Shown here: positions 9,364 to 15,574 of the stretch, piece after piece
How the letters are laid out: each line of letters opens with the position of its first letter
Position numbering within the stretch: position 1 is the first letter of the stretch
Assembly (NCBI RefSeq): GCF_903064525.1
Contig: NZ_LR797830.1
Coordinates: 2,170,001-2,234,000, forward strand
Source: Methylacidimicrobium sp. AP8
GTDB lineage: Bacteria > Verrucomicrobiota > Verrucomicrobiia > Methylacidiphilales > Methylacidiphilaceae
DNA length: 64,000 nucleotides
Direction of reading: 5' to 3'
Notes under the pieces: generated by a model
What the model saw: only the letters and a program-made list of their open reading frames with translations
The model's database searches: none
Told to the model about the DNA's origin: nothing
Program-made: the position numbers and the translations under genes

Positions 9364-9497
9364 CCGACATGCCCGACCGAGTCAAGAGAGCGCGGATCCG
9401 GAACGGTGTCAAGCGAAAGCCATGGGCGGCGGGCGATCCGCATTTTTTCCCGGGCGGTGCTTGCGTTTTTTTTTCCGCTTGCTATCAACGTCATCCA

Positions 9498-10175
9498 ATG
9501 AAACCTCCTACCCGATTTGTACCCGTAGTAATCGCCGTATTGGGCTTCCTCGCCTTCTCCTCCTCCGGTTGGGCCGCATGGGACCTGCAGGACACGGTCA
9601 ACCGGGCCACTCGGGACGTCTGGCACTTCAAGCGGTTGAAGAAGGGCACGATTCCCCATTCCGTCCTCGAGCGTGCTAAAGGCATCGCCTATCTCCGGAA
9701 GAAGGAAGAGGGCTTCCTCTTCGGCTTCTCCTCCGGAAAAGGCTTGGTCATGGCCAAGACTCCCCACGGCTGGTCCGGGCCGGCAGCCATCAAAAGCGGC
9801 GGGATGAGCTTCGGCCTCGAAGTGGGGGCGGAGACCGAGCAGCTTCTCTTCATCTTGAACACCCCCGAGGCCGTCGAGCACTTTGCCAAGGGGCATAAGT
9901 TCAAGCTGGGAGCGGATGTGGCCGTCACCGCCGGTCCGACTTCGGAAGAGGAGGTGAAGCACTACAAGGGCGCTCCGGTCTATGTCTATACCCGGAAGAA
10001 GGGCTTCTGGACAGGCCTCGCCCTCAAGGAAAGCACCCTCGAGCCCGATCCAGACACCGACAAGGAGTATTACGGGCGGAAGGTGACCACCCGGGAAATC
10101 TTGGAGCGTAAGGTCGCGCCTCCGCCGGGCGCCAAGGAGCTTATCCGCGCGCTCGAGGCTCCTCACCGCAAGTAA
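9498..10175 (+). CDS. Exported SYLF (Ysc84-like) lipid-binding domain protein
   Basis: 225 residues. A signal peptide MKPPTRFVPVVIAVLGFLAF with a cleavage site after GWA leads into a SYLF/Ysc84 domain: LERAKGIAYLRKKEEGFLFG, GMSFGLEVGAETEQLLFIL, the VAVTAGP segment and a C-terminal VYTRKKGFWTGLALKEST block. Eukaryotic SYLF domains bind phosphoinositides; bacterial exported versions are widespread but of unknown role. The ATG at 9498 gives a complete signal peptide. It is followed by a strong terminator, so it forms a single-gene unit. Confidence 0.85.
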   Translation: MKPPTRFVPVVIAVLGFLAFSSSGWAAWDLQDTVNRATRDVWHFKRLKKGTIPHSVLERAKGIAYLRKKEEGFLFGFSSGKGLVMAKTPHGWSGPAAIKSGGMSFGLEVGAETEQLLFILNTPEAVEHFAKGHKFKLGADVAVTAGPTSEEEVKHYKGAPVYVYTRKKGFWTGLALKESTLEPDPDTDKEYYGRKVTTREILERKVAPPPGAKELIRALEAPHRK

Positions 10176-10208
10176 GGCGGCAAAGCCGAAGCAGGAAATT
10201 AGAATTAG

Positions 10209-10247
10209 CGGGCTTCCTCCGGGGCCGGGGGAAGCCCGTTTTCTTTT
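10209..10247 (+). terminator. Rho-independent terminator after the SYLF gene
   Basis: A perfect 9-bp stem, CGGGCTTCC (10209-10217) with GGAAGCCCG (10230-10238), closes a GC-rich 12-base loop and is followed directly by TTTTCTTTT. It sits 33 bp after the SYLF stop and separates that gene from the receptor gene downstream. Confidence 0.9.
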
Positions 10248-10275
10248 CGCTCGATGAACATGGGATTTTCCTTGC

Positions 10276-10305
10276 CACTATGTGATAATGCATTATCACA
10301 TAGTG
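10276..10305. promoter_or_regulatory. Perfect 30-bp palindrome abutting a TonB-dependent receptor start
   Basis: Bases 10276-10290 (CACTATGTGATAATG) are followed without a spacer by their exact reverse complement (CATTATCACATAGTG). Three bases later comes the preferred ATG at 10309. The core TGATAAT-GC-ATTATCA resembles a Fur-family 7-1-7 operator (TGATAAT-N-ATTATCA) but with two central bases. A second palindrome, GCGCATGCGC (10305-10314), overlaps the start codon. A role as operator or as RNA hairpin blocking initiation is inference; the perfect symmetry is directly visible. Confidence 0.7.
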
Positions 10306-10308
10306 CGC

Positions 10309-12717
10309 ATGCGCCGCCGCTTCCCGCTCGGTCTTGCCATCCTCTTCCTTGCTTTTGCGCTTCCTCTTTCGCTCGGGAAGGCCTTCAACGGTTCCGGCGA
10401 TCTTTCCCCTACCACGACCCTTCCCGTAGTTCAGGTCGAAGCTTCGAGCGGCGGCATCCTTCCCGGAAGCTGCTCCTCCGCCTATGCCATCCCGATGGAC
10501 GTTGTCGATACGCCCAGAGCAGTGACTCCCGTCTCGAAGACTCTCATGGAATCGGCCGGGATCGGCCAGTGGGGGAAGTGGGACCCCCTTTCGATCACCT
10601 ACCTCAATCCCGCAGCCATGGTCGATCCGTCGCAAGCCGCCTGCGCTTCCGCGCCCGACATCCGCGGGCGCCAGGGCCTGACCTTCCTCAACGGGATCGA
10701 GGAGAACGTCAACTTCGGCCTACAGGATGTTCCCTGGAACTTCAACATGGTCGAGAGCATGGACCTCGTCGAAGGGCCGCCCGGCGCGGTTTATGGGGCA
10801 ACCCAGCCTTCCAACGGCTACGTCAACTACATCACCAAGCAGCCCTACTTCGACCGGTTCCGAGGCGACGCCTGGGCAACGATGGGGATGTACGACCAGT
10901 ACATGTGGGGAGCCGAGGTCGGCGGGCCGATCGACCACCTGGCCGAGGGCCAGTCCTCCAAGCTCGGTTACCGGTTCAGCTATCTTGGAATGAACAACGG
11001 CAGCTACTACGACTATATCTTCGATCAGCAGGAGAACTTCTACGGAGCGATCGGCTGGCATCCGAACGACCGCTACCGTGCCGACCTCTACGCCGACTTC
11101 GGCACTTACTCCTACATGCTCGAAGATGTGCTGATGAACCGGCCGACGGAGGCGCTGATCCAGGATGGCCTCTACTATCCCGGTTACCCGCCCCTCCCGC
11201 AGGTGAGTAGTCCCGGCACGGTTCCGGCGAACAACTTTCTGGGCACTCCCGTTCCCGTGAGCCGCCGGCAGACGATCAAATATCCCGGCGATCTCGGCCG
11301 GGCGATCACCGGCATGGCCCAGCTCATCCAGTCGGTCGCGGTGAGCGACGACCTCCAGGTCGTCAACAATACGCTCTTCTGGTACCAGGATCACATCGCA
11401 AGCGAGGACGAGATCCTCTTTCAAGAGGCGTGGGATGCGTACGAGATCGACAACCGGACCGAGGTCCGGGCACAGTTCACCACCCCGGGCCCCTTCGGGC
11501 GGATGGCGCAGTTCCTCGACACGGGCATCGAATGGCGCTACCAGCAGGCGCTTGCCTACGACTCGCTTGAGTTCACGGTCCCAAACCAGTGGAGCGTCTT
11601 CGAGAATCCCTACCTTCGCAACGGCGCCTTCACCCCTGCCTTTCAAGCCTGGGTCGGCAACCCCTCGGCTCCCGGCGGCGGGGAGTGGCTCGTGCCCGGC
11701 GGCCCCTACCCCTTCTACTTCGAGCCGCTCAACGGAGCGACGGGAACCAACTTGACTCGCTACGGGAAGGTCTCTCCCTTCTGGCAGCAGACGATTCAGC
11801 TTACGGACACCCTTTCGGTCATCCTGGGCGCGCGTCTGGACCTCTACATGATCTCCGCCCAGACTCCTCCGGGCACACCCGCCATCCTCTTCGAGCAGCT
11901 CGACACGACGCAAGCCCTGCCGCTCTTCAACGTCAGCCCGACGTGGAAGCCCTACCCATGGATGACGACCTACTTCAACTTCAACTGGGCTCAAGCGACC
12001 GACGTGGGAGGGGCAGGCGGCTACTCGCCGACATTCACCGACGAAGCCTTTCATCTCCTCAACGAATTGGAAGAGCTGGGAGTGAAATTCAGCCTCGCCC
12101 GCAGTCGACTTTTCCTTTCCGCGGATGTCTTTCACGAGGACACCTATCTTTTCAACTACCTAGAGCCGGCCAACCCCGTTCAGATCAACGGATTCGAAAC
12201 GACCGCGACCTTCCAGCCCAACCGGAGCTTCTGGATCCGAGCAAACTACCTCCTCATGACCGGAGTCGAGAATTGGAGTTCGTCACCTTACGGCCCGCCT
12301 CTGACCCAGACCTACTCGACGACGCAGGCCGACCGGCTCGGCCTGCCCCTCGACAATCAGGCGAGCTTCCCGCCGGGAAGCTATGCGCTGATCGGCTGGC
12401 CCGAGCAGACCGTCTCCGGAATGGTTACTTACCAGGACGACTCGGGGATCGGCGTGACCTTGGGAGGACTCTTCTTTTCCGATATGTACCTCGGCTACGA
12501 ACACCAAGTACGGATTCCCCCCGAGTTCGTCCTCAACGCCCAGGTTTTCTATGCACAACCCCATTGGGAAGCGCGCCTCTACCTCTTCAACTTCACCGAC
12601 GAGCACTACTGGCTGCCCAACGGGTTTGCCTTCAGCCGGGTACGCACGCTCAACCTCGACACGGTCTATGCCGGCTGGCCTTTCTGGATCGAGGGGACAG
12701 CCACATGGAAATTTTGA
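10309..12717 (+). CDS. TonB-dependent outer-membrane receptor
   Basis: About 802 residues. A signal peptide (MRRRFPLGLAILFLAFALPL) precedes a plug domain with DTPRAVTPVSKTLMES and the block VESMDLVEGPPGAVYGATQP, then a long beta-barrel that ends in an aromatic residue (ATWKF), as outer-membrane barrels do. No TonB box could be picked out. Such receptors import metal chelates, vitamins or other scarce solutes using TonB energy. An in-frame ATG at 10282 lies inside the 30-bp palindrome; 10309 is preferred because it gives a normal signal peptide. The protein is clearly paralogous to the one encoded at 12855-15347. Ligand unknown. Confidence 0.88.
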   Translation: MRRRFPLGLAILFLAFALPLSLGKAFNGSGDLSPTTTLPVVQVEASSGGILPGSCSSAYAIPMDVVDTPRAVTPVSKTLMESAGIGQWGKWDPLSITYLNPAAMVDPSQAACASAPDIRGRQGLTFLNGIEENVNFGLQDVPWNFNMVESMDLVEGPPGAVYGATQPSNGYVNYITKQPYFDRFRGDAWATMGMYDQYMWGAEVGGPIDHLAEGQSSKLGYRFSYLGMNNGSYYDYIFDQQENFYGAIGWHPNDRYRADLYADFGTYSYMLEDVLMNRPTEALIQDGLYYPGYPPLPQVSSPGTVPANNFLGTPVPVSRRQTIKYPGDLGRAITGMAQLIQSVAVSDDLQVVNNTLFWYQDHIASEDEILFQEAWDAYEIDNRTEVRAQFTTPGPFGRMAQFLDTGIEWRYQQALAYDSLEFTVPNQWSVFENPYLRNGAFTPAFQAWVGNPSAPGGGEWLVPGGPYPFYFEPLNGATGTNLTRYGKVSPFWQQTIQLTDTLSVILGARLDLYMISAQTPPGTPAILFEQLDTTQALPLFNVSPTWKPYPWMTTYFNFNWAQATDVGGAGGYSPTFTDEAFHLLNELEELGVKFSLARSRLFLSADVFHEDTYLFNYLEPANPVQINGFETTATFQPNRSFWIRANYLLMTGVENWSSSPYGPPLTQTYSTTQADRLGLPLDNQASFPPGSYALIGWPEQTVSGMVTYQDDSGIGVTLGGLFFSDMYLGYEHQVRIPPEFVLNAQVFYAQPHWEARLYLFNFTDEHYWLPNGFAFSRVRTLNLDTVYAGWPFWIEGTATWKF

Positions 12718-12854: not shown

Positions 12855-15347
12855 TCAAAAGAAGACTCGGACCGTTCCCATCACCCAAAAGGGGAGTCCG
12901 ATCAAAACCTTGTCGTAATTGTAGACCCGGTCTCCCTGGAACCCGGTCCCTGTCGGAAACCAGTAGTGGTTGTCGGTCAGGTTGTAAACCTGCACCCGGG
13001 CTTCCCACCGCTTGGTCGCATAAAAGACGCTCGCATTGAGGGTGTAGTCGACGGGGATCCGGGTGGCATAGTCGTAGGAAAGAAACATGCCGCTCTGGAT
13101 CCAGAGCCAGAGGGAGGTGCCGAAGCCCTGGTCCGATTTATAGGTCGCCATCGCAGTCCCGTGCTCGTGGGGAAAGCCGATGAACGGATAGATTCCGGTC
13201 GGGAGGGTGGTGTAGGGATCGACCGGGAGGTTGTATCGTGCCGCGGTTGCCGCGGAATAATTCTGGATCACCGTAGGGCCGGTCTGTGCCGCGCTCTGCG
13301 TCCAGAACTCCTCGCCCGTAAGATAGTCAAAGCCGAAGCTGTAGGTCCAATTCCGGTTCGGTTGATACGTTCCGGCCAGCTCCGCTCCGAGCACGTCGGC
13401 GGGCGTGATCGGCGTAAAGCCCCCGGGAAGGACCGTCACCGGGAAGAAGGTCGAGTAGTAGAAGCCTTCGGCGCTTAGGAAGAGCTTATCGCGGAGTAGG
13501 TTCAATTTTACGCCCGATTCGTACATGACATTCGTCAGGTGGTAGTAAGGGCTCGTGAATTCCGGACAGAAAGCACCCAGGACGTCCATGGCTGCGGTTT
13601 GGGCGTAGGAATAGGTGAAGTAGGCGTTCATCCAGGGATAGGGCTTGTAGCTTACGCTCGCGTTGGCCTGGGGCTCGAGGATCGAGTAGTTGCTCTGGAG
13701 CATGAGCGCGGGCGGGGTGCCCGGCGGCTCGCTGTTGGCAATCTCGTACCATTGGAGCCGGGCGCCGAGGAGAAGGTTCCACTTTTCCCCGAGCCGGATG
13801 TTGTCCTGGACGAATGGGGAAACCTGGAAGAATTGGGACCGGGCCGTTGCGAAGTTATTCGTGTTGTAAGTCATCCCGGGAACGCCCGGCACGGGGATGT
13901 CGGTCAGGTAGATATCCCCCGCCCGCAAGGCTTCCGCCATCGTGATCGGCGGGAGCAGGCCCGACCGAGTGAGAGGCTGGGTCATGTTCCAGAAGTTGTC
14001 GGCGATCCGGCTCGTCTCGGTGTAATCGGTCTGTTTGTCGAACCAGAGGAAGATGCCGCCGTCCAGCTCGTGAAAGAGCGCGAGCCGGCCGAGGGGGGGT
14101 TCGGTCTTCGCCTGGGCTTCGAGCCGATGCTCGATCAGCCAGTCGCCGGGAGTATAGCTGAAGTTGGAGTTGGCCAGCGGATCCTGCACCATGTTGAAAT
14201 ATTCGAACATCGTGTTGTTGACGATCCGGAGGTCATCGGAGAGCTTGAGGGTCTGGATAACCTGAGCGACTCCGTAGAGGTTCCGGTTCCCCGCGCCGGC
14301 TAGGTCCGCCAGGTTGTTCCGTAGGCTGATCGGCACCTGCGGCCCCCATTGCACGATATACCCCTCGCCGGGAACCGAGGTGCCGATTCCCGGATGGAAG
14401 GTGCCGTTCGGTCCGAGCCAGCCGATCATGCTCCCGCTCTGGTAGAGGTCACTATCGATCAGCGCCTGATCGGGCCGGTTGATGCCGAGGGGCAAGTTGA
14501 AGCCTAGGGTGTCGAACTCGAAGTTCGAGTCGATCGTGTAGTTTTCCGAGGGATGGGCGGAGAGGGCCAGGTAGAAGTCCTGGCTGTGCATGTAGGCCCC
14601 CTCGTAGTAGCTGCCCGAGTATTGCCCCGCATAATCGAAGCGGTAGGCCGCCCTTCCGCCGGCGAACGGCCCCCCGATATCCAGGTTCCACCGGTTCTGA
14701 TCGTACATCCCCATGCTGTACTGGGCATCGCCGCGAAAGCGGTCGAAATAGGGCTGCTTGGTCACGTCGTTGGCATAGCCCGCCGCCATCTCGCGCGCTC
14801 CGAAGACGGCGGGCACCGGACCCTGGACGATATCGATATTGTCATAGGCGTAGAAGTTGGGCATGGGCCCGGAGGTGCCATAGCTCTCCAAGCCGACGAG
14901 CATCCCGTTACGGAAAACGGTGGCGGGAAGCCCCCGAATGAAGGGCTCCACCGAATAGTCCCCGGCGGGCGCCATCGTGGTCAAGGAGGGGACGAGCGGA
15001 GCCAAGTCGTCGTATCCCATCAGGTTCCCCGGCGCCACCGTATCGAGCTGCTCCCGCGAGATCGGCGTCACTTCCCGCGGGGTGTCGAGGATGCTCATCT
15101 CGGTCCCATAGACGTTGATCGGGGTAGCTCCGGGCCCCGGCAGCTCCCCGATCACCTCCACCTCCGGCAGGATGCCGGGAGCCTGCTCCGGAGAGACGGG
15201 AGCGGCTGGCGCGGTCGGCGCGGCGGCCGCGGGAGCGGGCGGCGCTTCCTGGGCGGCGGCGGGAACGGCGTCGAGGCAGCAGAAGCCCATAAGAACCGCA
15301 AAGAGACGGAACGTCTTTCGGGGGCAGACGCCCCGGGCCGCATCCAT
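12855..15347 (-). CDS. TonB-dependent outer-membrane receptor (paralogue)
   Basis: About 830 residues. A signal sequence ending near PAAAQ is followed by an Ala/Pro-rich linker, a plug domain (ILDTPREVTPISREQL, YDNIDIVQGPVPAVFGA) and a barrel ending in VRVFF. It shares with the receptor at 10309 the stretch TKQPYFDRFRGDA followed by SMGMYDQ or TMGMYDQ, similar PYPWM and NPNRTW-like strand segments, and overall order. The first ATG is 15347; a TTG at 15383 would add 12 residues. The upstream sequence contains TTAGTCTAA, a short palindrome, but no copy of the 30-bp palindrome. Ligand unknown; metal chelates are the usual guess. Confidence 0.87.
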   Translation of the reverse strand: MDAARGVCPRKTFRLFAVLMGFCCLDAVPAAAQEAPPAPAAAAPTAPAAPVSPEQAPGILPEVEVIGELPGPGATPINVYGTEMSILDTPREVTPISREQLDTVAPGNLMGYDDLAPLVPSLTTMAPAGDYSVEPFIRGLPATVFRNGMLVGLESYGTSGPMPNFYAYDNIDIVQGPVPAVFGAREMAAGYANDVTKQPYFDRFRGDAQYSMGMYDQNRWNLDIGGPFAGGRAAYRFDYAGQYSGSYYEGAYMHSQDFYLALSAHPSENYTIDSNFEFDTLGFNLPLGINRPDQALIDSDLYQSGSMIGWLGPNGTFHPGIGTSVPGEGYIVQWGPQVPISLRNNLADLAGAGNRNLYGVAQVIQTLKLSDDLRIVNNTMFEYFNMVQDPLANSNFSYTPGDWLIEHRLEAQAKTEPPLGRLALFHELDGGIFLWFDKQTDYTETSRIADNFWNMTQPLTRSGLLPPITMAEALRAGDIYLTDIPVPGVPGMTYNTNNFATARSQFFQVSPFVQDNIRLGEKWNLLLGARLQWYEIANSEPPGTPPALMLQSNYSILEPQANASVSYKPYPWMNAYFTYSYAQTAAMDVLGAFCPEFTSPYYHLTNVMYESGVKLNLLRDKLFLSAEGFYYSTFFPVTVLPGGFTPITPADVLGAELAGTYQPNRNWTYSFGFDYLTGEEFWTQSAAQTGPTVIQNYSAATAARYNLPVDPYTTLPTGIYPFIGFPHEHGTAMATYKSDQGFGTSLWLWIQSGMFLSYDYATRIPVDYTLNASVFYATKRWEARVQVYNLTDNHYWFPTGTGFQGDRVYNYDKVLIGLPFWVMGTVRVFF

Positions 15348-15574
15348 GACCGAGCAGTATAGGCCGGCCCCGAGTAGAGACAAGCCATTTATTAGTCTAA
15401 CCTAACTTTATTTATGGATATAAAGCGCGCCGTTTTTACAACTTCCTCTGCTGTCTTTCGCCTTGCATGTAGAAAAACGGCTTCTTGAGCCGCGCATCAC
15501 CGGGATTCGGCTTTCGCCCGGCGAGGTTCCGGCCGAATCCTTGACCGGGGCTGCCGGCCAATCCTAAATGGCAC
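15348..15574. other. Divergent intergenic region
   Basis: About 225 bases between a minus-strand receptor and a plus-strand membrane protein. It contains an AT-rich patch (about 15385-15430) that stands out against the GC-rich genome and includes TTAGTCTAA and TTTATATCC on one strand or the other, likely promoter or operator sequence for the receptor. No RNA gene or terminator was recognised. Confidence 0.4.

Follow-up and report, generated by a model that had tools for sequence, protein, structure and literature searches.

We herein show that a 16-bp palindromic core, TGATAAT-NN-ATTATCA, lies before the gene of a TonB-dependent receptor in all 11 genomes where the region upstream of the orthologue could be read, which belong to two genera of one family of verrucomicrobial methanotrophs, and that in one of these genera it recurs upstream of a second receptor gene and of a ZnuA-type metal ABC operon. 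Given this conservation in two genera, along with the small set of transport genes that carry the site, the idea of an operator put forward in the initial annotation gains support. Judging from sequence comparison, the core very likely acts as an operator overlapping the receptor promoter, and the protein that recognizes it is probably a Zur-like repressor responding to zinc; we file the site as a probable new example of a Zur operator. The window's genus is represented by G000-G006 (the window genome included) and the sister genus, probably Methylacidiphilum, by G007 and G009-G012. They contribute six (window included) and five readable upstream regions, respectively, as G006, in which the receptor gene runs off the contig end, was left out of the upstream scoring.

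Table 1. Coordinates of the features around the receptor start codon in the window.
Feature	Position	Strand	Remark
Intrinsic terminator of the upstream gene	10207..10240	+	Hairpin conserved in upstream alignment
Perfect 30-bp palindrome	10276..10305	.	Outer arms (10276-10282 and 10299-10305) confined to own species
Putative operator core TGATAAT-GC-ATTATCA (16 bp, 7-2-7)	10283..10298	.	Conserved
GCGCATGCGC over the start codon	10305..10314	.	Unconserved, probably chance
TonB-dependent receptor gene (ATG at 10309), proposed Zur-controlled metal receptor	10309..12717	+	

The window, i.e., the whole 64-kb stretch of DNA that was analysed, belongs to a genome of 2.3 Mb in a single contig, on which the genome-wide work was done by pattern searches. 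The initial annotation had described a spacerless palindrome of 15 plus 15 bases and judged it very unlikely to arise by chance, and both statements hold: at exactly 10276-10305, CACTATGTGATAATG is followed directly by CATTATCACATAGTG, the last base lying three bases 5' of the receptor ATG, and at the composition of the window 1.5e-4 perfect palindromes of at least 30 bp are expected per 64 kb (0.005 per genome). It ranks first among the perfect palindromes of the window, the runner-up (18 bp) being 12 bp shorter, and occurs once in the genome. Since the 15-base half-site has no other near match genome-wide, merely ones with three mismatches, we rejected the 30-mer or its half-site as a repeated element. 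The second palindrome noted at the start codon, GCGCATGCGC, is indeed present, but a role for it is unsupported: 10-bp palindromes of this kind are commonplace in the window, and it is absent from the aligned upstream regions of the relatives.

Alignment of the orthologous upstream regions revealed that the 16-bp core is kept in the 11 genomes, but the full 30-bp palindrome is missing from the relatives. The best match to TGATAANNNNTTATCA in these regions comprises 10-12 of the 12 key bases and lies 25-62 bp from the approximate receptor start; shuffled controls gave P values of 0 to 0.022 for each orthologue, mostly below 0.005, and a single one of 64 control upstream regions of other receptor genes scored 10. 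In four aligned relatives from the window's genus the core alone is kept, reading TGATAGTGCGTTATCA, TGAGATTGCATTATCA, TGATAGTGACTTATCA and TGATATGTGATAATCA, with TGATAATGCATTATCA in the window. Its centre, correctly described as one base wider than that of the 7-1-7 Fur box, is retained as 7-2-7 in the orthologues, and in 8 of 11 of them a third GATAAT-like hexamer abuts the core on one side, as in the array GATAAT GATAAT CC ATTATC of G007 and G011. A search of 98 genomes with the 20-mer TGTGATAATGCATTATCACA (up to three mismatches) gave no match in congeners; the matches in other families of the order or class were linked neither to receptor genes nor to zinc genes. The core might in principle be a product of chance or a mobile-element remnant, as the perfect 30 bp occurs in its own species alone and a related 16-mer lies near a transposase-containing region; for the core, this is refuted by its conserved position across both genera (11 genomes), and we give it hardly any credence. 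The 16-mer, TGATAATGCGTTATCA at G000:C1:842189-842204 (L007 6190-6205), is the sole other close match in the genome (one mismatch over 16 bases); a transposase-like gene some 2.5-3 kb off and a tRNA-Arg gene are found in its surroundings, and its target gene is not obvious. A near-match at G000:613896 was rejected as a target, since it lies inside a TolC-like coding sequence and its congener counterparts are also in coding sequence.

The seven outermost bases of either arm are unconserved and, among the congeners compared, restricted to a single species, which leaves the 30 bp unsupported as a functional unit. The third hexamer is missing in the window: G002 and G004 carry CACTATCG where the window has CACATAGTG, which is its left flank in reverse complement. 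Possibly, a template-switch (quasi-palindrome) mutation copied the left flank onto the right one; a single event of this kind, perfecting an imperfect palindrome, would account for the 30-bp symmetry as well as for the absence of the hexamer, and this perfection need not be functional in itself. The seemingly exceptional palindrome resolves to a conserved core and a lineage-specific extension.

Since the terminator closes the upstream gene, a receptor-specific promoter must sit within the 68 bases that are left (10241-10308), about half of which the palindrome occupies; no match to a sigma-70 consensus promoter was found before the receptor. The upstream gene (9369-10175, + strand) encodes a Ysc84-domain (SYLF-type) protein and is followed by the terminator, and the same order precedes the receptor in congeners. 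We postulate that a dimer binds the core as its operator, within the short stretch available for a promoter from the terminator to the start codon; loaded with metal, the dimer would block the promoter, and loss of the metal would release it. The zinc-loaded form of a Fur-family repressor, most likely Zur (G000:C1:1807246), would thus bind the core and keep RNA polymerase away; when zinc is scarce, the repressor would leave and the receptor would be made. A hairpin that hides the start from ribosomes had also been considered in the initial annotation. The window sequence folds at -22.8 kcal/mol (z -4.4), which is exceptional for the window alone, but in four of five other upstream regions the fold differs little from that of shuffled controls (z -1.1 to +1.0), and in the remaining one z is -2.4. 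Moreover, the core is kept as a DNA sequence and compensating stem changes were not found in the orthologues, which favours a protein site over an RNA hairpin limiting translation; we regard such a hairpin as very improbable.

The receptor protein (802 residues) has no match in Pfam and weak TonB-receptor matches in NCBIfam and PDB; in its paralogue, Pfam recognizes Plug and barrel domains. The paralogous gene (12855-15383, - strand) is convergent to the first, a pairing found in both genera, and it was rightly said to lack the palindrome, as no box was found upstream of it (best score 7 of 12). In G005, an insert of roughly 2.6 kb that carries a transposase-like gene interrupts the receptor orthologue (L220, G005:C1:1586400-1589700). 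In G009, in-frame stops break the orthologue up into several frames (L221, G009:C10:92900-96200), and the receptor thus looks dispensable in some species. Another receptor, of a group about 46% identical, is preceded in five genomes of the window's genus by a weaker look-alike, CGATAGCGGATTCTCA, which sits in an otherwise conserved upstream block (L116, L117, L120, L122, L112).

Sites with up to two mismatches number 1-3 per genome of the window's genus, where the reversed control pattern usually gives none, and 11-15 per AT-rich genome of the sister genus versus 3-12 for the control; given this high background, exact or position-conserved sites alone were used in the latter. At least seven exact copies of TGATAATNNATTATCA occur among the matches listed over 13 genomes, and six of the seven listed precede receptor genes. 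In the sister genus, the second receptor has the box upstream in four of five genomes, each time with 12 of 12 key bases, and the ZnuA-type operon (binding protein, then ABC ATPase) has it just upstream in all five, as TAATAATTCATTATCA in G010, G007 and G011 and, in contig orientation with the gene on the opposite strand, as TGATAATGAATTATTG in G012 and TGATAATGAATTATTA in G009. The binding protein matches Pfam ZnuA at 3.5e-52, and the NCBIfam models AztC (zinc) and MntC (manganese) with 107 and 106 bits, respectively, both under the cut-off. No box was found upstream of the ZnuA-type operon in the window's genus; the gene preceding this operon is the same in both genera. Hence, the zinc link derives from the sister genus, and the metal-dependent control suggested initially is supported indirectly by these operons but not by that of the window's own genus. 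A further site, TGATAA..TTATCA, is kept about 130-140 bp past the HU gene (hup) in four genomes of the sister genus (L061 1501-1517, L063, L059, L055); no target gene was found downstream of it, and it possibly represents a small RNA or a terminator.

As to the regulator, every genome encodes one Fur-family protein (G008 two), which in the window genome is that at G000:C1:1807246, and one DtxR-family protein (G008 has an additional sub-threshold match). In NCBIfam, the DtxR-type protein scores as MntR-like (269 bits, under the model's cut-off of 350), and its gene adjoins an NRAMP (mntH-like) transporter gene, which led us to reject it as the binder and leaves zinc open for the Fur-family protein; no strong core match was found near the DtxR-family gene. 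The Fur-family protein has the metal motif HHHH ahead of the first CxxC, likewise found in the zinc regulators 2o03 and 3mwm, whereas Fur 4ets has HHDH. Zur is thus the best candidate on this motif, with Fur or PerR left possible by the similarity scores, since overall similarity and family models did not separate Fur, PerR and Zur. No box was found at the regulator's own gene.

Were this single protein Fur or PerR/Mur, the site would be an operator for iron or manganese, and the receptor would import a complex of one of these metals. The hexamer content in G007 and G011, that of a classic Fur box plus one base, would fit, as would the presence of Fur among the regulator's best full-length similarities and the resemblance of the ABC binding protein to MntC. 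We nevertheless consider iron or manganese rather unlikely, because the metal site is HHHH and not HHDH, manganese is already covered by the MntR-like protein beside the NRAMP gene, and the box is common to the ZnuA-type operon; in addition, iron is soluble in acid habitats. A repressor of an unrelated family, e.g., ArsR, TetR or Rrf2, acting over the receptor and the ABC transporter would agree with the Fur-family gene itself having no box and with the even 7-2-7 centre, which is unusual among single-dimer Fur-family boxes (PMC6103462), but the half-site and the hexamer array closely match Fur-family sites, making this improbable. There is a similarly small chance that a two-base-centre Fur-family operator (TGATAAT-NN-ATTATCA, often with a third hexamer) controls a metal regulon in verrucomicrobial methanotrophs through a regulator that deviates from known Zur/Fur proteins in dimer geometry or in metal, e.g., one special to these methanotrophs such as a lanthanide or copper.

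A Zur operator, the reading we prefer, has parallels in known systems, in which TonB-dependent receptors and znuABC are commonly Zur-repressed (PMC6103462), including the three Caulobacter receptor genes znuK, znuL and znuM with GTTA-N5-TAAC sites upstream (PMC4176598). As there, an AT-rich palindrome is found in the promoter regions of TonB-dependent receptor genes and of ABC operons of the ZnuA type (PMC6103462; PMC4176598), here at 11 of 11 receptors and 5 of 5 sister-genus ZnuA-type operons of presumed zinc uptake, in genomes that encode a Fur-family regulator. Published Zur boxes are, however, 7-1-7, 9-1-9 or 23-bp palindromes (PMC6103462), while the half-sites here are TGATAAT with a two-base centre; also unlike known regulons, the znu-like operon of the window's genus has no box in the same genome, and the regulator is a candidate. 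The E. coli two-dimer Zur motif, TRWNAYRWTATAWYRTNWCA, is likewise an even-centred palindrome (PMC6103462) but differs in sequence; by eye, some sites agree partially with the E. coli RNNNY register. The Fur box GATAATGATAATCATTATC (7-1-7) shares the TGATAAT half-site with the core, and its third GATAAT hexamer recurs in most orthologues. In contrast to it, the window and the orthologues have one extra central base, strict 7-1-7 boxes are absent from most congeners (none with up to two mismatches in six of the seven genomes of the window's genus), and a ZnuA-type operon is linked.

The searched literature yielded neither a Zur study or Zur box for Verrucomicrobia nor a Zur regulon for Methylacidiphilaceae. 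For this family of acid-loving methanotrophs, our findings offer a specific box and a handful of candidate targets of metal control, and a receptor without an annotated substrate gains a likely role in zinc uptake.
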